Under the pieces are notes generated by a model. It was not told where the DNA came from, made no database searches, and saw only the letters and a list, made by a program, of their open reading frames with translations. From Pegea sp. RAD2-039 (taxonomy: Eukaryota > Chordata > Thaliacea > Salpida > Salpidae): a stretch of DNA of 64,000 nt. How positions within the stretch are numbered: the stretch's first letter is position 1; each line of letters begins with the position of its first letter. This document shows, piece by piece, positions 15,111 through 42,400 of the stretch. Position numbers and translations under genes: made by a program. The DNA lies in NCBI GenBank assembly GCA_034620365.1, contig JAQGEQ010000186.1:1674001-1738000 (forward strand). The letters run 5' to 3'.

Positions 15111-15139
15111 ACTTTTTGAGTGAAATTTGCCTAATAACT

Positions 15140-15500
15140 GTATAGTGCCCGTCTGCATATTGTAGCGGTCACCACACTTGTCAATCAGGCAGGAGGTCCT
15201 GGGTTCGACCCAGGTTGACACATCCAACAACGAAAACTCCGGGTAGAAGGGCCATTTAAGTCTGGTTAATGACAGCACTTTAAAAAAACGTAAAACTTTG
15301 AATTTAAAGCCGGAGCTGGAGCCCCGTAGGCAGTTTGTCACGTTACCTAGTGTCGTTCTGACAGCTCCTGCGACACCATCCAGTCTGAGCTCCATCAGTC
15401 CGTATGTCCCGTTGTATACCCTTGTTGACGTGGAGATTTTCATAACTTCTGACCTGGCTTGTATGCTTAAAGAAAAACGACAAGTTGATCGTCTTTATGA
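15140..15500 (+). mobile_element. SINE-like element with tRNA-derived head
   Basis: The stretch is markedly GC-richer than its surroundings. At about 15164-15182 there is an A-box-like GTAGCGGTCACC. At about 15197-15213 there is a perfect T-arm: five-base stem CCTGG/CCAGG around GTTCGAC, i.e. a B box. No matching acceptor stem precedes the A box, so it is not a functional tRNA gene. The T-arm is followed by a body of about 280 bases (about 15220-15500), as in a tRNA-derived SINE. Short open frames over it are chance. Only one clear copy is in the window, so the family status is inferred. Confidence 0.6.
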
Positions 15501-16976: not shown

Positions 16977-19600
16977 TTAATTACATGTAAACTGCACACC
17001 AAAATTATCCGGATTATTTTCACAACTGTTCAAAGCAATTGTTTTTGCTACTACGGGATCTCGATCGTTTTTATAAAATATTCCCGTTTCCCTGGAGAAA
17101 GACTCACGTAGAAAAGGAGAAAACATTTTAAAAGAAATCTCATTGTCTTGTTCAGAAATAGACGTCTCTTCTAAATCATTTTCAAGAGTGATTCCAATCT
17201 TGCTTCTTACACATTTTCTATCATTCATTTCAGATTCTATTGTAATAATATTTTGAACTTCTTGATTCGCAAGTATATAACTGAAACAACGAAAGTGATA
17301 GTATATTAAATCTTAAACATCTTTCATTTTACCTGCATTTGTATTCCAAACAAGCTGTTCTTTTCTTACTTTCTAATAAAGGTTTTACTTCAAGCGATCT
17401 TAAACCAAATACTTCACCAGTACTATTTTTGCTGCTTTTAGATGTTAAGTAAATACTATCCTTTTGATTGTCACTGATTATTTCCACCTGAATAAAATTT
17501 AAATCTCTTTAAAACCAAGCAACTTATTTGAGTGTATCACCTGGATATAACAAGCATTAAACTCATTCAAACTGGGCCACCAGCTCATTGGATCTCTTCT
17601 CCACGTAAAGAAAATATTATTTTCATCAATGGTAATATTGTTGAATTCTATTATACCGTTTACTTCCCTATAATATGTTTGAGATTTGATAATATTCAAC
17701 AAAGCAGTAGAACCTACCGATAAAATCGAATATGATTTTGACTGTAGTTAGCAATAAGACAGCTATATTCATCACGATATATAGGTCCATCATCAGAAGG
17801 AAGGTTATCTTTTGATACTGTGTTGATGGTTATGTTGCTTGACTGAAACCTTTAAGAAGAAGTGAGTCGCTTATGCAATTGAGCTAACATCAATAAAACC
17901 TGTAATTCAGTGCCCAGTTAATATTTGGGTCGATACCATTTCGTCTTAAAGGAGAAGCTAATAGCTGTTCATCTCCGTTATACGTCGCTTGAAATGTCAT
18001 AGATAGAAGATTATCCTGATCACAAGGTACTCTTATACACGCCCCAATATAGGGTTCGGTCAGTTTTGAAGTCATATATCGCCATCTTCTTCCGTTGTTC
18101 TCCCAGGCCACTTGACGTATGAGGGCATAAGACAGCTGACCCCCGTTTTTCATTCGATGGTTTTCATATGCTCGGACTGGAGATTGAATAAATTGAAGAA
18201 AGTCTTCTTGAACACAGCTATCTCCCTACCTTTTGCAAAACACCATTTCCTTGAGACAGTGGCGAGGGCTACATAACGATGTTTGTTGATTTCAGGCAGA
18301 TTTGCAGAAATTTTCTTCGATGGTGTACTAGAAGCCTAAACATGTTCTTAGTGGATGCATCAATGAAAAGGAGGGAGTCTTACCGACATCTCTATTCGTT
18401 CTTGCCAATATCCTGTTTGATCATCAAGTAGAAAAACTTTCATTTTCTTTTTTTCGCTAGCAATTTTTATTTCAGAAGTCTCAAGTCTAATCCTTATCTG
18501 AATGAAAGATTTGTAAGTTATTGGGTTATTAAAAGGTTTTAGTAACTCACATTTCTGATAATCAGATTTCTGTTGGACCCACGACGCTTCACACCGATCC
18601 TAAACACTCCATAAATCCTCATCGGGAGCTTATCAGATGTGAAGTAGTCTCCATTTCCCATCAGGCTCGAAGACATTAAGCGAGGATCAATGTAGGACAC
18701 AGTGGCTTCAATCTGTATTATCAGTTAGTAAACAAATAAACAAAATGAGAAAGTATTTGACCATTCCTCGAACAGATTTTCCAGTTTCAGTAAAATACGA
18801 ATTACTTTCCACAATAACACTGATAGGATTTTCAACTTTGCTCAAAGGTGTGTATTGAGGCATTCGTGGGTAGAATTGTTTCTTATTACTTGCTTGATAT
18901 CTAATCTTATTCGGCGATCTTTGTAATATAACCTCGTAAAGAACAGCGCCACCAAATTTTTTCATTTGCATAACCTGTTTTCAAACATAAAAATTGAAAA
19001 TAATCTTTACTTAATAAATATTTAACGTAACCTTAGTAGCTGGAGTTATTCTTTTATTTTTATCAGAAAATCTTAAAGGCGATTCCCGATACGCATCCAT
19101 AGGGATACTGAAGAAGCCGTTGCTATCTGTTTTAGCAAGAAGTCGAAATCCTCTTTGCACATTTATACCTTCCAAATAAGTTTTTGAACCATCTGCTTCC
19201 AAAACAGAAACCCTAAAGAGAAAAGCTTAATTGGCTTACACTATTATCACTATCAATATACCTTCCAGCAAAAGTGAACAATTTTTTGTTACAAGGATTA
19301 CAACCGCACTTGGTAACTATACTAACTTCAAATGTGCTCGCATCTGTAACAAGTCACTCAATTAAAATACTCTCTGTAAAAAGCGTTTGAGATGTACCTT
19401 GACATAAAATTGATCTCTTAAGAAATTCTACTGGTCCACAACATTTTAGATCAGCTGTACTATTAGTGTCACAATTGACTGTGGGACAAGTTCCAACATT
19501 GATGAAATATGGTTTACCATTGGGTCTTTTACAAGATAAAGGAATTGGTATAAAATTTTCAATTGGCTCTTCGTTACATGACCCTTTGAATGTATAGATT
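16977..19600 (-). CDS. CILP-like gene, block 7: CILP C-terminal region
   Basis: Starts with a cysteine module (CPTVNCDTNS, CCGPVEF, about 19590-19400) and CGCNPCNKKLFTFAGRV, followed by a carboxypeptidase-regulatory-like segment (LLAKTDSNGFFSIPMD). Later parts follow vertebrate CILP closely from memory: GPIYRDEYSCL, FYREVNGIIEFN, DPMSWWPSLNEFNACYIQ (CILP: WWPKPMEFRACYIKV), TACLEYKC, DRKCVRSKIGITLEN, GIFYKNDRDPVVAKTIAL (CILP: GIYTVTDQDPRTAKEIAL) and the end FGVQFTCN. CILP is a secreted cartilage-matrix protein that binds TGF-beta family ligands in vertebrates; its role in this animal is unknown. One place, CFAKGR to GDSC, needs an extra base at the G3 run (plus strand CCC 18224-18226) to stay in frame. 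Confidence 0.85.
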
Positions 19601-22600
19601 TTTTTAGTTTAATTAAGTTACTGATAAATTTAGCTTACAAGAAGATAGTTTGCAACTAAGCCGACCATTATCACCAAACAAACATCTTTCATTCTTTTCA
19701 CAAGTAGTCGGTGAACAAATTACTTTTTCATCATTACATCTGCACAGCTTGCTGCATTTTGGTGTATAGTATGTTTCTCCATTCTGTGTAATATAAAAAT
19801 ATGTAATAAATACTTTTAAAACTATTTTTATCAAAATATCAAAGTTTAAAAATATTTTTACTATAAACTTTCAAAGAATTTTAAAACTAAACAAATGAAA
19901 TGAGAGCTTACTTTATAGTAAAGACCATCATGATAACATCCACACTGATTTGATTCATCAACACATTCATTGCCAGATAATATATAACCAGGCAAACAAG
20001 CGCAGCCTTGCAACAAACAATTATAAAATAAGAATAAACTAAAAATACAAAGCTACTAAAACTAGACACAAAAATATGACCAATCATTGAAATCTACTAT
20101 TTTAAAATACCTTCAACACAAGCATCTGGACAGTCCAACTCAGCCTGTTTGTTTACGCAAGTGTTTGGGCATGCTGATACGCACATGCTGTACTCAGAGT
20201 TACGAGGACACTGCCACGCTGTCATAGATCAAATAAATATGATTCCAAAAGAGTGAAATCAACTTACGTGAGTCGATTTGCTTTCGCCAGTCACATATAT
20301 CGATGCCTTGTTGCTGGCATCTTAATGCATATGCTTCTACATTTTGTATAAAAGCTAAATCCACGCCGTTCATAGCACACATATCATATACACAATCCTT
20401 TGAAATTATACAAATAATATTTTAATAGAATATGTATTTCCAATTCTTACCGAAAAGTAGGTATTAGGATCAAAAAAATTATGGCATTTTGTGAAGCATC
20501 CTGGTTTCTTGATTATTATGTTACACTTTTCACCATAACTTGCTCGTGAAGTTAGGCTACAGGTATCTTGTAGGTACTCTTCAGCAAGCTGACATCTAGA
20601 AGTTTTGTAAATTATGTATCAAATAAAAAAAGCTTGTCACGTGACTAACTCTCTTTGGGAATTTATCTGATAGCTGTTCGCGAAGCTGATCGTGTTATTA
20701 GTCCGAACGTTTGTGCCTCGTATGATGAAGTCATCATCTTTATTGTCATTAGAATTCCCACAAAGACCTTAAAGATAATAGAGAATTAAATGTAAGCTTC
20801 AATTGCTGATCTTCTACCTTCAACAGCTCCGGAGTACTGTGATGAGATTCCAACTTCCAGCAAATGATCTCCATCATAACGAACTTGTAGTCCAAAGTTT
20901 GTGAAGAGAGACACAACACGTCCTTGAGTTTGGATTTCTAATCCAGATGAAAGTGTTCCATATGGCAGGTTGACTGCTACTCCATTAACCTGTTCTCATA
21001 ACCTTGTTATCAGAATCAATTTGATGATGTCTTTAATTTTTACCAATGTCAGCAGCTTTTTGCGAAGTTCAATCACATAACTTGGCATCCTAATAATCGT
21101 CTTTTTCAACCATGTACCAATAACGGCTCCAAATCGGAATTCGTTCTCAGTCTGAATCAACCAATCAAAATCAGCAATTTTTAATTACAATTAAGACTAT
21201 AGACCTCGATTGAAAATGGAACAAGATTCACTGCCGCAGGAGTAGTCTTTACTAAATCATACAAACATTTTCCCTGATAATCAAACTTAATACCATCAAA
21301 GTTGATGTAGTGAGGATCTCCTGACAGTGTACACCATTTCATCCCGCCATACCTTCCTGTATTTAGTGTGGTTACCACAGAAACAAGTTGCCATTACCAA
21401 AACTCACTGGTGCATGATGGCATTTTGGATGACCATGAACCATTTTCGAGACACTTCAGCTCAGAAGATCCGATCAACGAATAACCAGCGATACATCTTA
21501 CAAAAAGACTTTCACCGATTAAATAAGCTCCTGAATGATCCTCAATCACTCCTCTTGTTGGAGGAGATGGTGTCTCGCACTCCATTACTGAACAACACTA
21601 ATCAGTAGCAAGTAGTAATATTTGAGAAGAAGACTTACAGACACAATCCGCCCCTTCAGTTTCATATCCACCTGAGCAATCGCATGAGTAACTTCCAATC
21701 GAATTTCTGCAGATCTTTCCTTTCGTACAGATGTTCTCGTAATCACATTCATCAATATCTGAAATTACTTCCATTCATATTTTCATCTAACCACGTGATT
21801 GCAAACCTTTGCATTGTGCTTGGATACGATTTGACCATGTACCTTGTCGAGTACACCGCAATGTATCACCTCCTTGAAGACTGTAGCCGACATTGCATCC
21901 GAAACTTACAGTGCTCTTATACCCAAAACTATCATCTGAACTGATGTAATATCCGTTCAAAGGATTCTGAATCGGTTCACAAAAGATACCTGATAATATC
22001 ACCTCTAATAGTCAATTCTACCAACAAAACACTTCATTTTACTGACGTTTGCATTCCGGTGCTTCTTCCCAATTCCCATCTTGTTGACATCGAACTGAAG
22101 ACTCTCCAGAAATCTTATAACCATCTATACAGGAGAAATCAAGAAGGTAGTCGCTTATACGTGTCATATTGGCATTAGAAACTACAGGTAGACTTCCACA
22201 ATCGATCTCTACAAGCAGATTTGATGACAGGTTATAGATGAAGTAATTGATCAAGCTTTTACTTTCGCAAACTGGTGTCGAAGACCATTCTCTTTTTTCA
22301 CAGGTAACCGTTGACTCACCAACCATATTGTAACCTTCATCACAGAAGTAGGTTACTTTCATACCATTTTCGGAAACTTTGTATTCTGAATTGATGACCA
22401 GGGGTACGTTCCCACACAGCATTTCTAATTAAGATAAAAATTTTCATTTGAAAAGAAAGTAAGAGAAATGTTTACCATAACATTTAGGTGCTATTCCATC
22501 TGAGTATTGCCAAGCACCCTCTGCAGAGCATAAAGCTTCAGATGAACCAGATAAGCTATAACCGAGTGGGCACTTAAAGTAGACTTCTCTAAAAGTAAAT

Positions 22601-25600
22601 GAATTTCCTCCTTTTATTTCTTTATTATTTTCATCCATAATCAAAACGTCATCAAACACTGGATTTGGACATACAATTTCTGAAATATTGAACAGAATGC
22701 TTTTTGATAGTTTAGAATCGAATATGTTGTCTGCTTCATTTTTTATAAGTTTTGATTTATAATGAGATTGATTTGAAATCGTTTTTACAGTGACACAAAC
22801 ATTTAGTAAGAAAACTATATATTTTGCTTTTGTTGACGATAAAAGATGAAAACATTTTAAATTTAGCAACAAAATTTAAAGAAATCATTTAATTGATTAT
22901 AATTCTATCATAACTAAATGATTTAAATCAAATGAACAAATAAAAACCAATCATCGATTACCTTCACACACTGGAAAGGAGTTACTCCAATCACCATTGG
23001 CACCACAACGAACCGTACTGAGCTTTTCATCATTCATCTTGTACCCTTGTACACATTCATACCTAAAAGTGGTTCCTAAGTTTGCAAAGCCTTGAATATC
23101 AGACGGAAAGACTACACTGTTTTCGACTACGGGTAGTTTGTCGCAGTACACAGCTAAAATAAATAAATTCTAAGCTTGTTAATAGATTTTTAGGTATCGT
23201 GGTTGCTTTTTCTACTTTATTACAATTATAAACATGAATTTCTTTCAGAAATATAATATCATACTGACCATTACAAAAAATATCTCTTTCAGGAAACCAT
23301 CTTCCGTTTTGGCACGTTTGAAGATTCTTACTATCATCTCTTAGCTTGAATCTCTCATCACATTCATAATAAATTGAATCTCCAGAGAGATAACTCTCTC
23401 GCAGAGGCATGTAGTTACCATTAGGAATTTGATCAGGAGCCTCACAGAATATCGCTGATATAACAAATAGAGGTTTAAATTGAAAGTTTGTAGACGCCTC
23501 CATATTTCGATACCTGTACAAGTGATTCCATCCCCAGAGTATAATTCGTTACAACTACATTCATAACTGCCTTGAGTATTTGTACAAGCTGCATTTTCAT
23601 CGCAAATATCTTTCGCACACTCATTGATATCTGTACAATTTTAGATTAAAATAACTTAAAGCTCTTGTAATAAAAATTTGGTAATTTTTCTTAACCTTGG
23701 CACCCAGTAAACTCAATCATTGAAAATTGCCCATTATAATTACAAATTCTTTCAATCTCATCTATTGAATCACTCTGATAGCCAGTAATACATTTATATG
23801 TCAAAATACTACTGAAATTATAAGCTTTCTCAATAGGATAGTATACAGTATTCTTTATAGGTGCAGGCATTTCGCAGGTTACATCAAAATTGTAATCCAT
23901 ACCTGAAAAAAGATGCTTGCATAAGATAAAATTAAAAAGATAAAACCATAATTGATATTAGAACCTGGAAAAGTAAAAATTTCAGAAATACATTTCTTCC
24001 CATTTCCAACAAAACCTTCTTGGCATACACATGAGTAGCTACCAATGAGGTTAAAGCAATTAGCATTTCTATCACATATCTTCGGAATCAAACATTCATT
24101 GATATCTGATAAATCAATAGAAGAGGCTGTAAAAAACTGTTTTGTAGAATAAAGAATATTTATCTTATATAAATCTGCATATTTTAATTGTATAATAAGA
24201 TTATTTCTTGAGTTTTAATCAACATTAAAGATGTTTATGCCAAGAAAAATCCTAGTAAGCATCAGTAAACTTACAATGTTAAGTATGAGTATGTCTATAT
24301 ATATACTATTAGAGAATATGTCTGAAAATTCAATCAACAAAAGTAGAAATAATGTAGATTGAAATTTAATCAAAATATGGTCTTTTTAACAAACCGGAAC
24401 AGACTGGAGGAACAACATCCTTGTATTTCCAAAAACCATCAGTAGTACATACTGCACTAGTTGATCCTGAGAGCTCGTAGCCGTATGAACAGCTAAATAA
24501 AACATTTTCTAAAACTGTATAAGTTGATTTGTTTAAAATGTTTCCATCCTCATTCATTATAACTATTTGATCAATATCAAGGTCATCACAAGATATCGCT
24601 AAATTTGGAAATAGGAATAATTAGTAGAAAGTTATAATATTACAAAGAAGTTAGACTCACAAATACATTGAGGAGGTTCTGTTATGGACCATATTCCACC
24701 AGGCAAGCATTCTACCACGTCTGTTGAAGTTGATAACTTGTACCCTGGTACACATTGGTAAATTATGGAAGTATCGGCCTCATAACTTTCAAATACAGGT
24801 GAAAAACTTCCATTAGACACTAAGTCTGGTTTGGAACAGGATTTAGCTGCAAATACGAATCAATTGTAATTAAAAACTTATGTCACTAGAAAATTTTGTT
24901 GCAAAGTCATCATTTAGTTGAAGCAAAGTTTAAAGAATATTTCATGTAATTAGTATAAGAGATATCTTACATTTACAAACACCAAAAGCATCAAGTTCAA
25001 AGCCTTTTGAACATTTACAAATGTAACTTCCTTCAGTATTTGTACAATCAGCGTTCAATCCGCATGGCGAGTCATCACATTCATTGATATCTGAAACAAA
25101 ACCATTTAGTATAATCAAATTTCTTAAATATACAGCAACAAAGTATAATGATAGTTTTATAATAAGTTATTTCATTGATCAACTTTTTTATTATTATTTA
25201 AATGAGTTAAACCTTTGCAAGTTAAAGCAGCTATCTGGCGAGTATCCCAAGTGCCTTTTGAACTGCATGTTGCTTCAGAAGGTCCACTGTATTCAAATCC
25301 AATTTTACAATCGAAAAAGATCTTATCAGATATTTGGAAATATTTTTCTATAACTTCATTTCCATCTTTATCCATTAAAACTAAATTTTGAACTGGAGGA
25401 GATTTACAAGCAAGTTCTAAATAAAATAAAAACTAAATTAGTTTTAGAAAAAAAAACTTCTGTCCAATAAGGTTTTCTGAGGCTAAAAACTCAATCAAAT
25501 AACGACAATTTGATAACTTGTCTTCTTCATATTAATATTCTTAATTTGGACATAAAACTTTATAAATTGATAGATTTCGTAAGCAACTAAAAGGCAGTAA

Positions 25601-28600
25601 TGTCACATTTTGTTTATAATTTTTTCGGGCTAAGCTTCGTACGCCAAAGTAGTAGATTAAAGGAAGTTGACACACACTATCTTTCTACATGTGTCTATTT
25701 GACTATAGTAGATGAACCATCCTTTTAGGCTTTATGTTTGATGATATGGCCCAGTGACCTAGGACAGTGATATCAAGGTCAATGAATTGTAGGTCTCCTA
25801 TTCGGATAAACTTCAACCGCCTTTGCTTCTCCAAAGCAACTAGAAACCACCGAAGAAAATAAACGCTCGATAAATGGTTTTACAATATATCCACTCTCAA
25901 TGATTAAGTAAAATTGGAACCAACGTGTGCATAGCACAATTGGTTATTATTCAACCGCCTAGACCACTGGACTATCTTGTTGCTTCGATGTAATTAATTA
26001 TTGGTTGCAAATTTACAAACCTTTACACTTAAAACCATCCCCGACAAATCCAATCTTACAGGAACAGATAAAGCTTCCATCTGTATTCTTACATCTAGCC
26101 TTTTGATCACATGGAGAAGAGCTACATTCATCAATATCTTTGAAGAAGATCATAGATTTAATAACAAAGAATCAAAGTTGCTTTTAATCAATGTTAGTAA
26201 AAAATATTTTGAAGAAACAATTTGGAAGTTTAAGCAATAAATAAGATTGTGATTAAAAAGTACCGAAACATGCGGGTGACGTCTTTTTGTCAAACTTCCA
26301 ACTTCCATTTGATAAACAAGTCGCTTTTGATGAGCCTCTGATTTCGTAACCAACAGAACATTCAAAGTCAACTTCCTCAGAAATCTCATACTTTTCTTTT
26401 TTCTTTCTATTTTTAGTATTACTCTCATAACTCATGGTGATTACATTATCAAACATGGGATAGGAACACAGGCCACCTAAAAATGAGGAATTATAAAAAT
26501 TTTGTTTACTTAAGTAAGACAGAGAAAAAGGATTTACTTAAAAGATACAAAAATTCGTTTTGTTTAAAAAGTATTTTAGCTAAAATAAATTAAATATTTT
26601 AAAGAATTTATCACCTGAGCAAACACCAAAAGCATCAAGTTCAAAGCCTTTTGAACATTTACAAATGTAACTTCCTTCAGTATTTGTACAATCAGCGTTC
26701 AATCCACATGGCGAGTCATCACATTCATTTATATCTAGTTAAAGATGAACGTATTAGTTTGTTAAGAATCAACTTGTCTACGTTATTTTAACTAGAATAC
26801 TGTATTTCGTCAGTTGTGAATGGATATATGTAAACAAAAAACCTAAACAAGTAGGATTTCCAAACTGATTAACACTCCATTGAGTACTTAAGCTACATGA
26901 TGCTTTTGTTGGTCCTTCATATTTGTAACCAGTTGAGCATCCAAAGGTAATTTCTCCTTTGAATGGAAAATATTCTTGATTCACCTTTTTTCCATTTAAA
27001 TCATAAAGTATAACACCCTTGATCATAGGCACGCGACACGAAACTTCTGTAAGAAACAAATAAAAGTGTTTCACTTAAACTTGCCTCATATTATTTTTAC
27101 TTCAGCAAATATGTCTACCTTCACAAACAATACCATCTCGAGCAAAAACCAAGCTTGCAGGAGCAACTGTAACTACTTTGACTATTTTTACATTCAGCAT
27201 TTTTATTACAAGGAGATAGCTCACATTCTACTCAAAATATATCTACTTTTATGCCACGTGAAAGCAAAACTACTTATCGGTCTACCTTCACACGATGGTA
27301 GGATGTTTGTGTTATACTTCCAAGAACTGTCTGAGCTACAAATGGATTTTGATGAGCCTATAAGACCTGATAGATCTTCATTTTCTGCTGGATCACCGAG
27401 GTCATTAAGGATTAAGATGTTTTAAAACATTTCGAAGAGGACATATGCTTCTAAAATTGTCTTTACAAAGTAAACAATTCTAGACTCAAAAATAAGTATT
27501 TCTCTACCTTGATGAAACTAATCTCTCTCTGTTACTATAACGATTTTTGTAAAAACATTTTGAACAAACTTTAAATTTGATACATCAGTTTTATAAACAC
27601 AGATTTTGGTTAAAATTTAGAACTAGTTTTGCTACTATTATTCAATTAAACCTCTAAACTTTTAAATATTTTTAAACAGCTGAAAAAAACTTAAATAGTT
27701 CGAATAACTGGTTTTTACCATCACAAAAAGGCGCTGAGATACCAAAGTCCCAAGACCCAGTGGCCAGGCAAACTGCTGATAGTGGTCCTTTAAGCACCTT
27801 TCCTGCTCCACATTTAAAATTAACTTTTTGTGAGACTTCGTAGTTTTTTTGATTAATCTCCTTTTTATTATCTCTATCAAAGATTATTAGATCATCTATG
27901 TCTGGTTGTTTGCATGACACTCCTAAAAAGATAGATATTTTCGATGTTAGATATTTTTTACTATTTTTTTGGTGTAGATTTTTTATCACTTTTTATGTTA
28001 TAAGCTTGAAAATGTATAACAAAATGACCTGAACATTCAAAGCCGTCTCCCATATATCCTTTCTTACAGACACAAGCAAAGCTGCCTTCAGTATTTTCAC
28101 ACCTAGCATTTACATCACAAGGCTTTGCGTTACATTCATCAATATCTACAAGTTTAAATCTCATTAAACTTAAATCAGCAAAAAAGTTAAATATTCTAAA
28201 TTCTTAAAATTGCGTTTGGAATTCAATAAAAGCACTAAAATATTTAGTAAATTATCAAACAAATAAAAAAATATTATTCGATTCTCTATATTTTATAAAT
28301 TGTATTTTTCGCTAGAACAACCTTGTATTGTTTCTATTTCTAAAACTTATTTGTTAGAGAGCACTTTTGGCGATGTACATTTAAATTTAAACAGAAAATT
28401 CACAGGTAATTCGAGCTTATTACAACTTAAAATTGTTAATCATCAAAGAGCTTACCGTTGCAAGTGATTTCTTCTATAGACCATTTACCGGATCTTAAGC
28501 ATTGTACCTTCTCTGCTTTAGGAGGAGTAATTTTATACCCCTCATCACATGAATAATAAATAAAATCAAGCACTGGATATAATCCAGCTATTGTAGATCT

Positions 28601-31600
28601 AAAAGATCCATTTTCTATCGGAGGTGGCTTCTGGCAAATTAAAGCTGCAAAAAACATATTGCGGTTTTGATATTTCAACTTTAGATTATTTGTTGGTGTT
28701 ATATTTGTTGAATGAATTTTATGATAACTGTAAAGTTTTCTTATTTATTGGGTAATATTGATATAAAACAAACAAACCGAAACAAAAGCCACCAAGTGAA
28801 ACAAAATTTGGTTTACATTCACAAATAAATCCATCTTCCGCGGAAGAACATATTGCATTTTCATCACAAGGATTTGGGTCACAGGGATCAAGTTCTATAA
28901 AAATTGTGTTTAAACAATCGCTCAAAGACTTAAAAAAAGTGAAAATTATCAATAAAAAGGTTTTATATTAAAAGTAATCAGCATCTATTTTGATTTAAAC
29001 TTAAATATAAACTTTTTTGGTCCATTAGGAATAATTGAAATTAGAAATATCATAAAAAGATGCTTTAAAACCATCTGTGTTAAATCTAAGTTATTTAAAA
29101 TCTTCTTTATTATTTGCTTAATTTGATTTAGTAAATTGTTGCCCTCCATAAAGTAATTACTAAAAAATAAATGAGAGAAAGTAAATTCAAACCTACTAAA
29201 ATATTATTACTTTTATCAGAAGCTTAGAAATAATAAGCTTCAATCTATAAGGTTAATTTTTTTCAATTGAATTTCATTTATCTTTGAAAACATACTATTG
29301 CAACCATCTTCATCAACTTTAAAACCCTCTGGACATACACATTTAAAACTACCAGGAGTATTTACACAGGCATAGTTTTCTTTCTTGCATGGATTCATCT
29401 TACATTCATCTACATCTGAAGTTAAATAAAATATTGGTTAGTCTTTATCAGTTGGCAATTTTTTGGTCTTAAAGTTTTAATTTCTTCAAGTATCTTAGTT
29501 CATTTAGATAAAAGGACATTTATGAATAAAATTAAATCATAAAAACTTCAATTTAAAGAGAGTACTTTTGCTTGTTTACGCGTAACAACAAAAAATCATC
29601 AATTTCTTTACAAATATATTTTTATCAAATTATTTTCAAGAAAATTTACCTGTACATAGCGTTCCTTCGTAACCAACATAACAAGATGTACATACACTTT
29701 GACCATTTCCGAGGCAAATACATAATTTATTTTGCAAATTCTTAAACTCAGTACCTGTAAAACAGATAAATAGTGTTTATTAAACAAACTTCAACGTTTA
29801 CAAATAGTTATGATAATTATTATAAAACATAACAATAAATGATTAGATACCTTTACTAAAGTATGAGCTCCCAGATATACAGCCACAGTTTGATGGTCTA
29901 ACACATTTTTCTCCATCTAAAATATATCCGATATTACAAGCACAACTCTCTGTAATCCCAGGCAAATCACAGCTGAAAAGATGAATTGGTTTTTTAGGTT
30001 GAAGTTAATTATTTTAGCTTTTTTATTATTTATAGATCTTTAAATTAGCTTAACAAGATTGAAGTTTTTATTTGAAATCTATTTTTATAGCTTGCTTCAA
30101 CTTTAAAAGTTTAGAACTAACTATTCTGAAGCATATGGATCATGGCAAGTATCCGGGCACCTAGTTCCACGAATATCAAAATAGCTATTTTCTCCACACT
30201 CTTTAACACCACCTGGTGGTTTAACATATTGACTTGAAAACAAGCATTCTTGTCGATAGATATTTAGTGCCTTAAAATAAAGTTACATGATCGATAAAAG
30301 ACCTTAATAGTGATACTGTGATAAATTTACATCATTAAATGTTTCTGAGTGTCCTTTAGTTGCGCAAGCGTCAAACACACATGTGTTGAAGTACCTATCC
30401 GGATCAACTTTGCCATGACAAGAAGAGAACACACCATTAGGGTCTCGTATTTGACCACAGTACTTGTTCGAGCTCCTATTTTAAGAAAAATATAATTTGA
30501 TTTTCTAACTGGCATCTATCTATGTTGGTAAAACGGTCAACTCAATACCATTTTTTTCGGTTCCGATTCAAACAAATAGTTTTTGGAGTTTTTGTATCAT
30601 TACAATTGTTATTAATCATGTAATTATTAGCAAAGTCATCATAGTTTTCAAAAACTTGTCCATCAGGTGTACTTAGATCATCGGTCGGATCTCCGTTAAA
30701 GTTTCCACACAGTCCTTCAACCTATCAAAGTTTAACAGATTCAAGACTTGATCAGAATATTATGCTAACAGTTCACCTTATCTCTATAAAAATCTGGTAA
30801 AAGTAATTTGAATTTGTTTCCAGTAAATTCCACTTGAACACCAAATTGATTTCGAAAGATTAAAGAGTTGCCGTTTGATTTAACAGAAAATTCATTGGAA
30901 GAATAACTTCCAACTTTTAAGTCATTAATCTGAAAGATTAAGATTGAAATTGAAAGTAATAGTTGACTGAGAGATGATTACTTTGATGGTATTATTTTTT
31001 TGAAGCTCAATCTTTGTACTCCCGCTGTTTATGTAGATCGTCACAAAGCCGAGATATGAGACCTCCTTGAAGCCATGTCTTCGTTCATTCGTGTTTTCAA
31101 TATAAATCCATTTCGGATTTGTAGGTTTTAGGTTGTAAGTATTAACCATTTTGTAAGTACAGGGTCCCATAAATTCATAGGTCCCCGCCCCATCTAAAGT
31201 TACATAATGAGGGTCACCCCATGCCATGCACTTCCCTCTTCCTAAATAAACAACTTTTCATCACAAATCATTTGAAAGTGGGGTTCTTTTACCTGTAGGG
31301 GCGCATTGAAGGCGACCTTTTTTACTTTTGACACACTTTTCACCCTCATCACATCCTTCTGTAGCTCTACATCTTAAGATCTTGTCAAGACAAAAGCATT
31401 TTAATTTGCAAGAATCCATCATAAAAGTACTTTTATTCTGAACAGATATGTTATCAAGAGACTGCGATTTATGCAAATGAAGTGAGTTACTTTGTAGTAC
31501 TTTCCACCTTTGCTACACCCACATTCTGTTGGAAGAACACATTGATCTCCTGATCTTACATATCCCTCATTACAAACACATCCTTCAATGCAATTATCTT

Positions 31601-34600
31601 CTTCACAGTCATCATTTGAAGTCTTTGAAGGATTCAGATAACTGAAGCAGTCTTCCTCGCAAGATGATACACAAGTTGTGAAATATGAGTTAGGGGGGCA
31701 TCTAAGGGCTTGATAAAAAAGAGAAATTTGTTGATCAGTGTAGTATATTGAATAGAAGATTACCACACTGAATAGGTAAGTTCAAGTGGAAAGCAATGCA
31801 CAATAGAAAAATAAAGTTTTTTGATGACTACTGTGTAGTTGTAGTAGTTAAATAAACTTCTGTTAACGAGTTATTAACATTTAAATTAGCTACAAAATAG
31901 TAAAGCTTCAACTCAACTTTTAGAAAAATCTTTTTAAAATGTTAACAGTTTTTTTTTTATGAAATAACTTTCAGCTTCTTACTTGTATCAGTTTGATCTC
32001 TCCAATCACTACAAACTTCAATATTCTTTTCCTGACACATCTTTGCATACAAAGCTATATTAGAAGAAATTGCAGTTCGAATGTCCTTATGATAACAAGC
32101 ATCATAAACACAACTCTACAACAATAAGTTAGTGGTCAACCCAAGCAGTCCCTAGCAAATCATGTCTTGATTACTTCATAAAAATGTTCTGGATCGATCT
32201 TTGGATGGCAGTCTTCAAAGCATCCTTTCCTGCGCTTAACCACAGCACAAGTATCTTTGTATTCATTTAATTCTTCATTTGTGCATAGATCTCCGAGCGG
32301 TGATGAGTCCACCACAAGAGAAACACAACTAAAAATCAATCTTTATGAAGCGGCTTTTATTTGATATATGTGGTATGAAAAAATAAATAAAAATAAATAC
32401 CTTCAAAAACCGATATCTTAAACAAACTTTTTTAAATTATTTAAAAGAAAATTGTATTGTTAACCATCAATCTTATTGAAGAGATAAATATTATTGTTGA
32501 AAAATTTAGATTATAACAGATCTAGACATAAACAAAAAAATCCTTCAATTATTTACTCTTCAATTGTTGTTGTTTGATATTGTTGAGCAAATGCGTCTGA
32601 GGTTTTAGCCAACAATTCACTACCATCAATTCTGAAGTCATTGGCGGGGTTTCCGTCATAGTCTCCACATAATCCTGATTGAACAACCTTGTTAAAGACA
32701 CAAGTATCAACTTAGTATTAAATGATAAAAAACCTTCAACACTATTCATTTGAGAGACTGGAAGAGAAATTATAAATGAGTAAATCCCATCAAACTGAAC
32801 TACGAGTCCTTCATCCGTTGCAAGCTTGATAAAATCTCCATACAGAGTTATACTCAATCCCAAGGGTTTGAAGAAATAAGGTAAGCTGACTATTTCACGA
32901 TTGACCTGAAATTTGCTTTTAGGTTTGTTATTGACTAACATTAGAAATTATACCACAAGTGTTTTGCCTTTTTCTAAAACAATTGTGAAAAGTCGAAATC
33001 GAATCACAATACTTCCAATCCAAGAAGAAAATTCATCTCCAAATCGATTTTCTTTCACAGCCTAAATATATTACGTCTTTATCTATATAGATCTTAAACT
33101 GATCACAGATTACTCGTTACTGCGTGATGATAAGCGACTTTAATTAAAAGTTTTTTTTTTAATTTAACATTTGAAGATATATTGATATATAACGTCATCA
33201 CCTCAATGGAAAAAGGATTAGCTAGAGGTGATTCATAAGTACTTCTCGACAAGATGTAAGAACAAATTCCATTAAAGTCATAAATTTTCCCATCAAATGT
33301 AGAAAAGTGAGATTGGCCGATACCATAACAAGTTTTTGGGCTATCTTTAATACAAAATCATTAAGCAATTAAACAATCACAACTCATTCATCATTTACTA
33401 TCTTCTCCTTCAATTTCTTTCCATCTCATAATAAATCCACGTCCAGATATGCTTTCATCAGAATGGAAGTTTACTGTCAAGATATTTTGATTACTGGTAT
33501 AGACCCGTTTTTTCCAACTACCGCAGAGCTTGCTAACATATCTAGGCTGAGTTCCGTTGTATAGCTGAAAATAAAAGTTCATTTTAAAATCATCATGATC
33601 TGTTTTTAGATCTTACCTCTAAATAATCCTTTTTACATCTACTATCAGGCTGAATATCGATATTTTCAAACGTAACTTCGATATATTTATCTGAATCAGC
33701 TAGAATTTTCCAAGAGCAGTCCTTAGAGTTAGGATAAAGATAAGGACTATTAGGTGATCTAACAACACCTTCATTCTTAGCAATTATTGTACCTCCACAG
33801 GCTAAGTAGCAACACAAAATTTAAACTTTGTTTTATCATTACAATCAAGCTGATTACTTGACTTATCAACTTGACATATAGGTTTCCTGCCATTCCATTT
33901 GCCATTCAATTTGCAACTTAGTCTTTCTGCTCCTTTAATTATAAATCCAGGAAGACAATCAAACTCATAAACTCCCCCTTTTAGGTTACTAGGATTGTTT
34001 GTAATGACCCCGTTAGTTGGTTTGTTTAGAACTTGACACGCTAAAGAAGAAGACTTTTTCAGTAGTTTCTAAGAGTTGTTCTGAAGGTTACAGTTATCAA
34101 GCTAATATTATTATTATTTTATGATAAATTTTGAAAATGTGAAATGCTGATAAAAGTGATAGTTGCAAATTGAACAGTGAGCTGATTATATTATATTTTG
34201 TTTGAATCGTAATTCACTATGAAATTAATCACAAACCAGCTTATTTGAAGTATATTTAAAATTGGTTAAACTTTTATATTTTAGACATTTTTTGATCAGA
34301 TTTCAAACAAACCTGATGAAAATATTGCAAATCTTTGAAAATAAATAATGAAATTTTCACCTTGAAAAGAAGAAGTATAATATACGACTAACTTGAAGGG
34401 ACACACGAAGGAAGATCTTGCCAGCCAGAAGCACTGCAAGTAACAGAGCTGGGTCCTTGTAGACGATCATTGTGATTTCGACATGAAAATAAAGCAATAG
34501 ATCCAGTTTTCCAACTAGTTTTACCAACAGGATAAACAACAACATTTTCTTCAACTGGTGGATATCCACAAGTAGCTATCAGAGGTCGATCTTGAAAGAA

Positions 34601-37273
34601 TCATCAGGTTAATACTCAGCTTACTTCGATTAAAAACCGACCTGTACTCATGCAGCAATATCGAACTTTGTAGTTTTCACATCTTCTGTCGTCTTGGTCA
34701 CCATTGACACATACAACCCCGTATGTCAAGCTGTGACGTAATACTTCATTTTGTGTGAAAAAACTGATATCTTTTCCGGTCCTTATTTGCATACCAGTAG
34801 GGTTCTCGCAAACAAGACCCTTGAGTTTATAACTCATAAACAGTTCACTATCACTACTACCCTGAGGGCTATCTATATCTAACCAATCACCCCAAGTGTT
34901 TGGAAGACAGTAGCCAACCGTGTCTCGTTCTGGTACCGAAGAAAATGTCAAATTCTATTGGGAAAGACTTCATATACTGACCTGGGACTGCACACCTAAA
35001 TTGTACTTGAATATACTTGTCTGTACCAGGACAAGGGTCACCAAGTACTGAGGTCAAGGCTTGTAAGGTGCAGCTGTTTTCACCGTTACAAAGCAACCAG
35101 ATCTCTTTGAAAGCTGATTCAGATTGACATCTGGTGTTGCTAGTTCTTGCTGCTAGACCTGCACACCTGTTTTATTAAATTACATCATAAGAGTGATTGG
35201 ATTTATTAAATGTCGTCAGAAAAACAAATGATAACTGAGGATTAAATAAGATGATGAAAATAGATTTTCTGTAATAAATTTTCTAAACATAAAAGGATAA
35301 CAAACTTTAACTTAAGATTAAGCTTATCTTGTTTTCGATGCTTATTTTTACCAATGAGATCTCCTAAGAAAATAATATCTAAATAATCTACATTTTAAGC
35401 TTCTTCATAATCATCATTTCACATGTATCAAAAACTAGAGTTAATTTAAAACACAATTATTTGTTGCCTATATAATGCTATTTGTCTAATTGAAATATTA
35501 AAAGACGATTAAACTTCAATTCATTTTGAAATATAAAGATAATAATACTTCTTGATTAAGACTCAAGAATCATTTTGGTTCAAGGAGCTATAAAGAAAAA
35601 GAAAATTATTTCAAAATGCCATAAAGTTAAGAAAAAATCAAAGTATACCGCCAGTCATCGAAAAGCAGAAGTCATTTTATCAACAAAGTTTTTATTTGCA
35701 ATAATTGAAATATTTGTATTCTGGAAACTTCGAAACGGTATTTTTGCCTTTTAGTACAACTAGTAGTTTATAAAATCAATCAAACTAGTTATTTAGATGT
35801 ACTTTCTAAACCTACAAACGTTTTATTTTATTTTTACTTTAGAATTACATTTTTAATCTTACATTAAACTTCTTATTTTCTAGATCTAGCAAAAATATTT
35901 TCAAATGTAATATCGTTTGATTAGAAATTAAATCTGTAAATATTTAAAGTGAAATAATTACGTGACATCGTTTGCTCTTCCAAAAAAAGCATCTTCTATG
36001 TACATCACTAATTTAGGGTTTTGGCAAGAAATTCTTGTAGCAACACCTTCACAGACAGTTGCCACGAATGCATATGGCGATGGAGGGATCATAAGATCAT
36101 TTTCATCTCCATCTGAAGATAAAGATGAAAACATTTCCAACATAACAAGTTTGAAATAAATTTTTATGATGTGATTTCATCGCATTCTTGTGATAATTGC
36201 CTTCTAGTGATGTCCCTTCTTAAATTTTTTGACATCACGATTTAAATACTTAATATCTATTGTTTATTTTGCAACAATATAATATTACCCAGACATAATC
36301 TAAAAGCTTGTCAAAAGTAATCCAAAAATAACATTTTTAAAAGCTATTACAAGACTGATAATAAATCAAAAAAATATTTGAATCGATTTAAAAAAATAAA
36401 GTCTGAGAAATATTTCGGTGATTTATTTAATGATTAACTGGCAAAAAATAAAGTTTCAGCAAAACTTTTTTTAAAAAGTAAATTAACTTTCAAACTCCAT
36501 GAAAAATGTTGTTTTCGACTTTTGAGAATTTTCACATCCATTAGATTTTTTAGGATTTAAATTATTATCAGTTTTTTCTTTAATTAGCTTCAAATATGAT
36601 GATAATATCGCAGATAACTAAAAATTTGCTTTGGAAATCATTTGACTAAAAAAATTTCATAATAAGTTGAAATTAAAATATTTGATTATGAAACACTGTG
36701 AAATTTTGATTTGTCGAAATAGAAACCTCGAAACTTAGTAAAACCACAAACTTATTTTTTATATTTTAATCAAATATTAAAATGTTGCAAAACATATTAT
36801 TTTAAAGTTAAACTAGTTCAAGCGAACTATTAAAACGGTTTAAGCTGCTATATATACTATCACTTATATTTCTTTAAGTTGGATGAATTACTCAAAAGTA
36901 ATTCTTTACTTGAAAATTTATCGTTTTTTATTTAAATACTTTTATTTGCTTTAAACAGAGGTTAAATTATCAAACTATTTTTTACAAACTTTTATAAACT
37001 TTTTACATAAACCGTTTAATGATTATTTAAAGTATAGCTAAGTTAATTAATCATGTAAAAATTACAATACATTTTCTGAACAAATAACACAACAGTTTTT
37101 ACTTTAACGTTCTCATAAAATTCGAAAAAATTACCTTTGCCCATAGAAAGACAAGCGGCAGACATAATGCAGAGTAAAATAAGATAGAAACATATCCCAA
37201 ATCTAGATGATTCTATCTTAATGATCATTTGAATTGATGTCCTGCGTTTACTAACAGAACTTCGTTGTATCAA
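16977..37273 (-). CDS. Giant secreted CILP-like mosaic protein (Gal-lectin, WxxW, sushi, CUB, VWD, EGF)
   Basis: One long multi-exon gene read right to left. Order: signal peptide; Gal-lectin; Mucin2_WxxW; sushi x2; CUB; VWD-C8-TIL-TILa; VWD-C8-TIL; array of about 10 EGF and 16 sushi modules; VWD-C8-TIL-TILa; cartilage intermediate layer protein C-terminal region ending FGVQFTCN, stop at 16977. EGF and sushi modules are mostly single exons with matching phase, which allows duplication and skipping. The start is either the ATG at 37273 or the one at 37228; the latter gives a more usual signal peptide (hydrophobic core CFYLILLCIMSAACLS). No transmembrane segment was found, so an extracellular-matrix, mucus or coat protein is inferred. 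At least two places are out of frame by one base (18224-18226 and 27144-27148). It may be more than one transcript, but introns, phases and the absence of any internal signal peptide favour one. Confidence 0.8.
19630..21390 (-). CDS. CILP-like gene, block 6: third VWD-C8-TIL assembly
   Basis: VWD (about 21350-20690): MKWCTLSGDPHYINFDGIKF, FRFGAVIGTW, VNLPYG, NFGLQVRYDGDH, EGLCGNSNDNKDDDF. C8 (about 20600-20275): CQLAEEYLQDTC, GCFTKCHNFFDPNTYFSDC, VYDMCAMNGVDL, CQQQGIDICDW. TIL (about 20220-19930): CPRNSEYSMCVSACPNTC, CACLPGYILSGNECV, QCGC; TILa (about 19905-19630): KCSKLCRCNDEKVICS. It repeats the layout of the first assembly, including TILa, and leads directly into the CILP-type tail. Confidence 0.8.
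21400..29425 (-). CDS. CILP-like gene, block 5: alternating EGF and sushi array
   Basis: From N- to C-terminus: EGF about 29415-29293 (DVDECKMNPCKKENYACVN), EGF 28895-28780, sushi 28645-28455, EGF 28145-28030, sushi 27925-27722, EGF 27235-27120 (one-base slip), a short sushi 27430-27290, sushi 27050-26850, EGF 26735-26620, sushi 26480-26270, EGF 26135-26022, sushi 25415-25215, EGF 25090-24975, sushi 24845-24665, sushi 24600-24395, EGF 24100-23990, sushi 23885-23695, EGF 23635-23520, sushi 23455-23275, sushi 23155-22965, sushi 22685-22475, sushi 22425-22255, sushi 22210-22045, sushi 21990-21805, EGF 21765-21645, sushi 21590-21405. Most EGF units start DIDEC or DINEC and match the calcium-binding type (D-I-D/N-E-C, then a conserved N and aromatic). 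Limits are approximate. The order near 27.1-27.4 kb is the weakest point. Confidence 0.78.
24977..25092 (-). repeat. EGF exon nearly identical to the one at 26621-26736
   Basis: This EGF exon and that at about 26621-26736 encode the same DINECDDSPCGLNADCTNTE domain. Over about 115 bases I count two differences. The adjoining intron sequences on both sides do not resemble each other. See the corresponding finding. Confidence 0.85.
25620..25990 (-). mobile_element. tRNA-derived SINE, copy 1, in a CILP-gene intron
   Basis: On - the element starts near 25990 with a tRNA-like head: A-box-like TAGTCCAGTGGTCTAGGCGG, and a weak B box (GTTGGTTCCAA) near 25915. The body contains TTGACCTTGATATCACTGTC and GTCACTGGGCC. 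The body matches the element at 51567-51790, which shares GGCCCAGTGAC, GGACAGTGA and an AGGTCAA box on +, plus more diffuse similarity at the outer end (TTGACA...CTTTCTAC). It lies between a sushi exon and an EGF exon. Diverged, so not recent. Confidence 0.7.
29640..31240 (-). CDS. CILP-like gene, block 4: second VWD-C8-TIL assembly
   Basis: VWD begins at about 31230 with AWGDPHYVTLDG and GPCTYKMVN and continues through about 30550 with QFGVQVEFTGN and EGLCGNFNGDPTDDL. C8 (about 30480-30130): YCGQIRDPNGVFSSCH, YFNTCVFDAC, CLFSSQYV. TIL (about 30180-29860): CPDTCHDP, CDLPGITESCACNIGYI, CVRPSNCGC. A short cysteine-rich exon (about 29757-29648) follows: LCICLGNGQSVCTSCYVGYE. This copy carries the canonical GDPHY motif that the first VWD lacks. 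Confidence 0.8.
31270..33344 (-). CDS. CILP-like gene, block 3: first VWD-C8-TIL assembly
   Basis: VWD: exons 33344-33202, 33061-32954, 32905-32734 and one ending near 32540; marks GIGQSHFSTFDG, LGLSITLYGD and GLCGDYDGNPANDF. The C8 domain follows (about 32335-31985): DLCTNEELNEYKDTC, GCFEDCHPKIDPEHFYE, SCVYDACY, CQEKNIEVCSDW. Then TIL (about 31710-31500): CPPNSYFTTCVSSCEEDC, CVCNEGYVRSGDQCV, CGC; and a TILa/VWC-like piece (about 31440-31270) with CKLKCFCLDKILRCR. This is the standard order in von Willebrand factor and gel-forming mucins, where it supports disulphide-linked multimers. Whether this protein multimerises is unknown. Confidence 0.8.
33399..34575 (-). CDS. CILP-like gene, block 2: two sushi domains and CUB
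   Basis: Exons 34575-34393 and 34040-33858 each encode a complete sushi (CCP) domain: CGYPPVEENVV...FSCRN...VTC...WQDLPSC and CQVLNKPTNGVI...FDCLPGF...LSCKLNGKWNG..IC. Exons 33801-33617 and 33564-33399 make one CUB domain: CGGTIIAKNEGVVRSPNSP, YLYPNSKDCSWKI, DYLEV, then LCGSW, NILTVNFHSDESISGRGF. Junction phases agree throughout. CUB and sushi are extracellular protein-binding modules; the partner is unknown. Confidence 0.82.
34642..37273 (-). CDS. CILP-like gene, block 1: signal peptide, Gal-lectin, WxxW
   Basis: The signal-peptide exon ends at a donor near 37133 (GGGCAAAG/GTAATT). Exons 36112-35962 and 35166-34982 together make a Gal-lectin (SUEL/rhamnose-binding type) domain: VCEGVATRISC, YIEDAFFGR, CQSESAF, LCNGENSCTLQA, DPCPGTDKYIQVQFRC. 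The next exon, 34929-34642, is a Mucin2_WxxW domain: the eponymous WGDWLDIDSP, then ELFMSYKLKGLVCENP, YGVVCVNGDQ and YKVRYCC. The WxxW domain is known from mucins and from CILP, which fits the CILP tail of this gene. All junctions are GT-AG and in phase. Confidence 0.8.
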
Positions 37274-41564: not shown

Positions 41565-42400
41565 TTAGAAATCATAAATTAAAATATCAGAAACTACATT
41601 TGTATCTACTGACGTAAGATTAACAATCCTATTTAAGGTAAAACATAATCTATTCCACCTATAAAAGTTTTTTAAGTTGTCAATTAAGTGGCTAATAAGC
41701 TCTTGATATGTTTTAAAATACCTGTCAGATGGTTTGCTAGTTAGAAAATATACTTTCACTACAAGCTGTGTTTTCAAAATACAATATTTTTGGAAGCAGA
41801 TGCTCATGACACAGAAGATTTTCTTCCTTTTAAGGAGTTTTCAAAAGTAAAAGATACATGATAATGTCTACCATGAACACCAAGCCATCTATTCTTTGTT
41901 ATCAGATGATGAACGTTTCTTTTTATCCAAGAAATATTTCATTTTCTTAAAGAAGATCATAAAATCTCTTTGCCAACTAGAAGGGTTCAATTCCCGCGTC
42001 ACTAGGACACCATAGTTGGCATCAACAACATCAAGACAGTTTTCAAATGTGTGATAATCCCTCTTGTCTTCTTTGATCCAATTTGCTAAAGTTCTTACAA
42101 CTTCTGACACATGCAGCTCAGTATTCTTTCTTGGTGCAAAATACACTTATGCATTCTCACTTAATCAAGATCTTATTCTTCTATTAAATGAGTCTCTGAT
42201 TGTACCACATTCCAAGAAGCATTTCGAAATTCATCGAATATATCTGTTTTTTGCTGAAATATAAACTGAATGCAATCTAAAAAATTTGTCAACTCGTCTA
42301 GCTTTACAGAGTAAAATCCTAAGTACTTATTGATCATCTATTTCAAACTTTTAACTGTATCCTGAACTTTTGTTAAAAAATGTATTTTTGGAAACATTTA
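41565..42400 (-). pseudogene. Possible broken protein-coding gene of unknown family
   Basis: Three neighbouring stretches on - read like real protein but in different frames and with stops. About 42340-42180: MINKYLGFYSVKLDELTNFL then DIFDEFRNASWNVVQSETHL, ending in a stop. About 42146-41889: TELHVSEVVRTLANWIKED, CLDVVDANYGVLVTRELNP and a basic end KKKRSSSDNKE. About 41760-41565: SDRYFKTYQELISHLIDNL. Composition (tryptophan, mixed charge, few repeats) is unlike the chance frames nearby. No family is recognised, and no introns explain the frame changes. It may be a processed copy of a host gene or an unrecognised repeat. Confidence 0.4.

Follow-up and report, generated by a model that had tools for sequence, protein, structure and literature searches.

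A predicted secreted mosaic protein joining FCGBP-type VWD blocks to a CILP tail in the salp Pegea sp. RAD2-039

The DNA analyzed here is a stretch of 64,000 nucleotides (nt) from Pegea sp. RAD2-039 (contig JAQGEQ010000186.1, positions 1,674,001 to 1,738,000; "the window" hereafter, with coordinates counted from its first nucleotide). Positions 16977..37228 of its minus strand most likely represent a single gene encoding a secreted mosaic extracellular-matrix protein, as judged from the coding sequence. The coding region comprises 67 exons, from an ATG at 37228 to a TAA at 16977, and encodes 3,576 amino acids with the only stop codon at its end. A Pfam profile scan of the spliced protein, carried out in pieces that covered its whole length, yielded the order signal-like start, SUEL, WxxW, two sushi, CUB, two VWD-C8-TIL blocks, a sushi/EGF array, a VWD-C8-TIL-TILa block, CILP_5th, CILP_8th, and CILP_C. 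All profiles proposed by the first-pass annotation of this DNA (Gal_Lectin, WxxW, VWD, C8, TIL, Sushi, and CUB) were found, and the domain order that it had reported was confirmed. All three VWD blocks belong to the FCGBP type, not to the polymerizing mucin/VWF type, and the protein ends in a genuine CILP tail.

Gene model and domain order

The gene model was obtained with our own exon-chaining script, which was retrained on its own output, with donors limited to GT or GC and acceptors to AG, and was then corrected by hand at the start codon and first exon, one in-frame 54-nt intron, the third VWD, and the last exon. The automatic chain contained 75 exons, eight of which were removed, including a relic pair and two exons unlike any module (one scoring 20.4). 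This chain presented a score of 2872, as compared to 320 for the opposite strand and 317–432 for five of five dinucleotide shuffles, and the script, when trained on one half, recovered exactly 30/33 and 24/33 exons of the opposite half; the open frame is far beyond chance. The 66 introns are short (median 61 nt, range 45–1022) and all are GT-AG, a splice rule largely imposed by the script. Two points tell against the model as it stands: its statistics were trained on the mosaic gene itself, and the ends of at least two exons are uncertain, namely that of exon 37 and the border of exon 24, which probably lies 9 nt further (29296, GTATGT donor), where it would complete an EGF module and yield a protein of 3,579 amino acids that is still free of internal stops.

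That the locus encodes one protein, as the first-pass annotation had proposed, is supported by the continuity of frame and phase across all 66 introns. The alternative is that two or more neighboring genes (e.g., a lectin/VWD/EGF/sushi gene and a CILP gene) were fused by the model, possibly as members of a spliced-leader operon. Very short intergenic gaps are possible in tunicate spliced-leader operons, so that fusion keeps a small probability on the evidence of sequence. A spliced leader is present in this genome: the 16-nt spliced leader of Ciona intestinalis (PMC7986045; papers are cited here from extracts of their text) has 272 exact copies, as compared to 0 for the reversed string; on this evidence, the animal is most likely a tunicate. 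Fusion would also be compatible with the four array introns of 310–672 nt and with two introns that contain an in-frame ATG followed by a hydrophobic run, one of 59 nt preceding exon 40 (maximum 2.90) and one of 133 nt preceding exon 26 (maximum 2.04), although we judged these two extensions to be due to chance. A break between the array and the CILP tail, which the first-pass annotation had named as its example of a refuting result, was not seen; the introns from the array to the third block, from the third block to CILP_5th, and next in line measure 51, 82, and 54 nt, the frame is kept throughout, and among the introns before exons 48–67 an in-frame upstream ATG is present only before exon 54 (3 codons). 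A break at this place is therefore unlikely, and we regard a fusion of separate genes as highly improbable overall. The leader also occurs in a tandem array of approximately 199-nt units (C4:1135044-1142217; C-numbers designate contigs of the same genome), with a GTAAGT donor after the leader in the two copies read.

The N-terminal part of the protein begins with an exon (37135..37228, minus strand, as are all parts of this gene) that, read by eye, encodes a hydrophobic start resembling a signal peptide. It is followed by the SUEL domain, a galactose/rhamnose-binding-type lectin on two exons (34982..36112; PF02140, 63.0 bits, amino acids 59–140), which bears out the carbohydrate-binding-type domain that had been placed at the front, and by a WxxW (Mucin2_WxxW or CysD) domain with the motif WGDW on one exon (34642..34929; PF13330, 62.5 bits for the exon alone and 62 in the genome scan). 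The WxxW domain was not listed in the scan of the 1,213-amino-acid N-terminal part, perhaps an effect of the speed filter. Two sushi domains (33858..34575; 21.9 bits for the first alone, with a cut-off of 20.7, and 34.5 for the second) and a CUB domain on two exons (33399..33801; PF00431, 81.4 bits) precede the first VWD-C8-TIL(-TILa) block (31293..33344) and the second VWD-C8-TIL block (29650..31241), which was assigned with Pfam; the VWD of this N-terminal part reached 169.5 bits, with C8 and TIL over the cut-off.

The array that follows (21408..29415) consists of 15 sushi and nine EGF exons, all 24 of which have phase 1-1 borders, the classical signature of shuffled modules; it sets the third VWD block off from the second by 1,320 amino acids (1212–2531). 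Nine EGF exons were found by our own count and eight stretches by Pfam EGF_CA. Together with the two N-terminal domains there are thus 17 sushi and nine EGF modules; a decayed sushi and EGF pair (27119..27387) in a 672-nt intron (27719 to 27046) brings these counts to the approximately 18 and 10 estimated earlier. The frame of this pair is broken and its sushi truncated; the EGF piece scored 28.6 bits and the sushi piece presented no Pfam match. One EGF exon (26615..26734) encodes a protein sequence equal to that of 24971-25090 except for the last residue, within a 146-nt repeat of 90% identity whose copies lie 1,644 nt apart, and the two exons are recent tandem copies. The decayed pair and the near-identical copy suggest that the array is still turning over.

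FCGBP-type VWD blocks and the GDPH motif

The third block (19666..21356; VWD 106.8, C8 58.4, TIL 47.0, and TILa 30.3 bits) found its best matches among solved structures in FCGBP chains (8rde_A, 1068 bits over six blocks; 8r0t_A, 578 bits over three blocks), as compared to approximately 285 bits for VWF, 229 for MUC5B, and 226 for MUC2, each over three blocks. A tree was built from 30 assemblies of this genome and two human FCGBP assemblies; genome scans covered 387 contigs (105.7 Mb), and 18 of 48 hits were left out as covering <70% of the profile. For loci outside the window, the gene models were built automatically by the script, whose statistics came from the mosaic gene, and the ends of these models are unreliable. 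A branch with 100/100 support parts 13 FCGBP-type rows (three from the window, four from C3:3.02 Mb, two from C3:50 kb, two from C9, and the two of FCGBP) from 19 rows of the mucin/VWF type; those of C3:50 kb and C9 probably represent copies of one gene. Less firm are the 11 rows flagged as long-branched and the forks within both sets, which are often weak; both detract from the finer grouping. Blocks 1 and 3 stand together in the best tree (93/78), with block 2 placed elsewhere without support, and an arrangement of the three window blocks as one clade was not rejected by the approximately unbiased (AU) test (p-AU 0.208).

Cysteine columns, taken from an 11-row alignment to a VWF D3 stretch, point in the same direction. 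Cys 1097, 1099, 1101, and 1142 (VWF numbering) are absent in all three window blocks but present in the mucin-like gene of contig C88 of the same genome; mucin-like rows from C84 and C18 have 1097, 1099, and 1101 and lack 1142, and the FCGBP rows have only 1101. The motif GDCxCxC was found in 4/30 genome assemblies, all of them outside the window. VWF C1099 and C1142 are the counterparts of the MUC5AC inter-chain cysteines. Because the window blocks lack cysteines aligned to inter-chain cysteines, classical mucin-type end-to-end polymerization is not expected. The window blocks also lack the first Cys of CGLC; an attempt to read this as the loss of a mucin inter-chain cysteine was wrong, since the MUC5AC inter-chain cysteines lie in C8-3 and TIL-3 (PMC11933400).

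The mucin-type multimerizing blocks claimed by the first-pass annotation were thus not borne out, given the grouping with human FCGBP (100/100) and the four missing cysteines. A covalently polymerizing, gel-forming mucin- or VWF-like protein would fit the combination of VWD-C8-TIL blocks and WxxW, which is common to mucins, but the mucin/VWF branch does not contain these blocks, the inter-chain columns that C88 keeps are empty in all three, no C-terminal cystine knot was matched by Pfam over the whole protein, which ends in CILP_C, and the described tunicate mucin Ci-GFM1 keeps all five inter-chain cysteines (PMC6109156). Ruled against by tree and cysteine columns, this reading is, in our estimate, very improbable. 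The C88 locus (C88:244154-263907) is itself likely to encode a gel-forming mucin. It combines EGF, WxxW, and VWD blocks with a long Ser/Thr repeat and resembles Ci-GFM1; stretches resembling fibronectin II and chitin-binding domains were seen there by eye, with Pfam listing neither.

The FCGBP-type character of the blocks extends to the self-cleavage motif GDPH, which is present in the second VWD (31207..31218; amino acids 851–854) and in the third (21310..21321; amino acids 2544–2547), upstream of the CILP tail. Cys 867 and 996, the disulfide pair holding the first strand, are kept in all 11 aligned rows; the predicted cleavage would therefore leave disulfide-held pieces, the last of which would consist of most of block 3 and the CILP tail. 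In FCGBP D10, cleavage requires the Asp and His of GDPH and is partly impaired by mutation of the Gln at Asp+14 (PMC10880436); block 3 has a Gln at Asp+14, the spacing of FCGBP Q4094. Several features weigh against cleavage and glycan binding as general properties of the protein. Only two of the three window blocks have GDPH, block 1 presenting GQSH in its place, and block 2 has no Gln at Asp+14, as is also the case for two aligned FCGBP assemblies. The motif is moreover no guarantee of cleavage, since the GDPH of MUC2 is cleaved in vivo and uncleaved in recombinant material (PMC10880436). The SUEL domain, for which glycan binding is predicted, carries FGR in place of the usual YGR.

The CILP tail and the origin of the mosaic

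The C-terminal region had been assigned to the CILP family, and this assignment held. CILP_5th (19398..19583; PF23708, 33.2–35.2 bits), CILP_8th (17667..18177; PF23730, 46.5 bits), and CILP_C with the stop codon (16977..17648; PF23599, 98.1 bits) all exceed the cut-off of 27, and the middle of the tail (18384..19343) matched the carboxypeptidase-regulatory-like PF23591 "CILP" profile at 16.7–19.9 bits, below the same cut-off. The genome scan with CILP_C gave two matches, both in the mosaic gene, and when the whole tail was searched against the genome, with only the best candidates scored, the 11 matches listed all lay in the mosaic gene. The tail had a single chance match (E 0.82) among solved structures and none in NCBIfam. 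TSP1 and Ig-like domains, which in vertebrate CILP are located between WxxW and the tail, had no Pfam match over the whole mosaic protein. Since both are absent, the protein is not filed as a CILP orthologue but only as CILP-tailed.

The first-pass annotation had considered WxxW a hallmark of CILP and the VWD/EGF/sushi region an insert in a CILP, neither of which was supported. The WxxW domain is equally a domain of gel-forming mucins, and the genome has 12 WxxW matches, counting exon halves and copies, including ones in VWD mosaics on contigs C3, C9, and C88, where no CILP_C was found. Its matches among solved structures were mucins only, a weak indication given that the compared set apparently contained no CILP structure. 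An ancestral CILP, with WxxW at the front and the CILP tail behind, that was interrupted by a VWD/sushi/EGF insertion would explain the presence of both parts in the expected order, and the phase 1-1 borders of all 24 array exons would permit insertion and duplication. This history appears doubtful, though, in view of the WxxW domains in the C3, C9, and C88 mosaics, the absence of TSP1 and Ig, and the 19–33% identity of the window WxxW to five others (none from CILP), with no group clearly closest. The data are explained no less well by a WxxW mosaic of the FCGBP type to which a CILP tail was added. The occurrence of WxxW in other VWD mosaics, the SUEL-WxxW pairing (SUEL adjoins WxxW only in the mosaic gene, among the matches listed), and a second gene with a VWD and a tail (on contig C25) together lead us to lean toward assembly from a shared module kit over one interrupted CILP. 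The mosaic gene is probably a member of a local group of WxxW mosaics of the FCGBP type, in its case with an added CILP tail. Two near-identical VWA_4/sushi-like/VWD/WxxW mosaic genes are located at C3:48035-61972 and C9:244247-258441, one of them near a contig end. A third copy is suggested by further matches to VWD and WxxW around C3:2160-9315. In the Pfam scan of the C3 and C9 gene models, neither the sushi-like part nor WxxW was listed.

The second gene (C25:847584-857704) presented the order TIL, three Ig, TSP1, VWD-C8-TIL, one Ig, and tail. Its tail, tentatively CILP-like by sequence, aligned with that of the mosaic gene at 34.3 bits when these two sequences alone were compared (E=1e-5) and matched PF23591 at 18.2–21.1 bits, below the cut-off of 27; no CILP_5th, CILP_8th, or CILP_C was found in it even at E up to 10, and this gene was not among the matches listed in the genome search with the window tail. 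Its VWD is of the mucin/VWF type. Joining it with window block 3 made the tree 54 log units worse (p-AU 0.00017, an optimistic value because the pair was named after inspection of the tree), and a common origin of the two VWD-tail junctions was rejected as regards the VWD. Should this tail be CILP, VWD and CILP became neighbors twice.

Elsewhere in the window, exons of an SH3/WW/RhoGAP gene (41978-60387, minus strand; RhoGAP 132 bits, SH3 33 bits, and WW 21.6 bits, the last below the cut-off) lie head-to-tail upstream of the mosaic gene, and a satellite with extreme base skew, built from a 14-nt unit (AGCATCAACCAACC) in approximately 130 copies, is located at 54245-56025. An open frame of approximately 110 codons with a high coding score and no Pfam match (15139-15465, minus strand) lies downstream of the mosaic gene. 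The plus strand contains exons of an MFS transporter gene (3832-6837; MFS_1 53 bits), which looks organic-cation-transporter-like by eye, and a Gag-like open frame (10136-11303) with a zinc-knuckle-like CFKCGKKGHNS, possibly from a retroelement; the scanned part of this frame (10484-11303) had no Pfam match. Searches of the window for tRNA and Rfam families gave 0 and 0 matches, and a COX1 search of the assembly gave 0. The genome presented 71 homeodomain matches, 13 of which were inspected and 10 read as homeodomains; among these ten are one Cdx-like gene and, sharing a contig, two posterior-Hox-like genes.

Proposed function and comparison with known systems

The description of the protein as a gel, coat, or matrix component is kept as the best guess, its function being inferred. 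We consider it reasonably probable that the gene encodes a secreted, self-cleaving, glycan-binding cohesive cross-linker with FCGBP-type blocks, with mucus, tunic, or larval glue as the likely sites. By analogy with FCGBP chemistry, the chain would cut itself in the secretory pathway at the Asp-Pro of GDPH in blocks 2 and 3, and the pieces would stay joined by the conserved first-strand disulfide. The SUEL lectin may bind glycans, the array of sushi and calcium-type EGF modules could serve as a long spacer, CUB, WxxW, and VWD may mediate protein contacts, and the CILP tail may contact matrix. The last of the cuts is predicted where the third block begins, ahead of the CILP tail, and reduction or exchange of the disulfide would consequently free a fragment composed of block 3 and the tail.

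CILP proteins are chiefly known in the matrix of vertebrate cartilage and heart, and the vertebrate protein is proteolytically halved. In the mosaic, cleavage built into the FCGBP-type GDPH block might present or release a CILP fragment, as a counterpart to this halving, with VWD and CILP joined twice independently if the C25 tail is CILP; we put this forward as a speculative and rather unlikely scenario. If real as one protein, the mosaic would show that, in the sister group of vertebrates, a CILP tail is carried by a scaffold of mucus type that is possibly self-cleaving. It would also offer a concrete test of the purpose of GDPH cleavage, namely whether a C-terminal matrix fragment is exposed or freed by it. 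The split between FCGBP and mucin branches, together with the cysteine pattern, also suggests a quick way of sorting the VWD proteins of invertebrate glues and coats into non-polymerizing and polymerizing ones.

The claim that no CILP with this architecture has been described agrees with our search of open-licence PubMed Central papers, in which no described protein with this domain order was found, nor any paper on CILP with Ciona or on Fc-binding protein with ascidian. Extracts of an ascidian endostyle transcriptome study mention mucin 5AC and SVEP1 and no mosaic-like protein (PMC9953650). The limpet protein P-vulgata_11 has homologues given as "oikosin-like, mucin, cartilage intermediate layer-like" yet contains two Mucin domains only, as described in PMC7333891, suggesting that the WxxW-type domain, and not the CILP tail, draws CILP-like names.

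Among known systems, FCGBP shares with the mosaic the VWD-C8-TIL assemblies of the same branch, GDPH, and the best solved matches. However, FCGBP has 12 assemblies in a run and a last VWD, with GDPH in 11 of 13 VWD (PMC10880436), whereas the mosaic has three blocks split by the array, GDPH in two of them, no first Cys of CGLC, an N-terminal portion with a lectin, WxxW, and CUB, and a CILP tail at its end. CILP1/2 present CILP_5th, CILP_8th, and CILP_C in the same order at the C-terminus and WxxW near the N-terminus; the mosaic differs in having no TSP1 or Ig, which are parts of CILP, and in the approximately 2,680 amino acids from WxxW to CILP_5th. The C25 gene also has a VWD-C8-TIL block before its tail but differs in its mucin/VWF-type VWD and in the presence of Ig and TSP1. 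Ci-GFM1 (PMC6109156) and the C88 gene likewise have VWD-C8-TIL blocks in a tunicate secreted protein, but inter-chain cysteines are kept in these, the C88 blocks are of the mucin/VWF type, and no CILP tail was described in the extracts for the former or found in the latter.

Two further systems bear on function. The oikosins of Oikopleura are tunicate coat proteins, of which oikosin 1 has a mucin/CILP-like domain and others have Gal_Lectin, VWD, CCP/sushi, CUB, and EGF; these parts are spread over several proteins, none of which showed the order of the mosaic in the extracts of PMC3390340. The sea star adhesive protein Sfp1 is also very large (3,853 amino acids), has VWD, C8, TIL, and lectin domains, and forms a footprint scaffold after auto-catalytic cleavage into four subunits (PMC9382459); the words CILP and sushi are absent from the main text of that paper as far as extracted. 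Sfp1 provides a working precedent for a self-cleaving cohesive protein. The combination of domains in the Pegea mosaic thus looks unusual, while every part and working principle have precedents.

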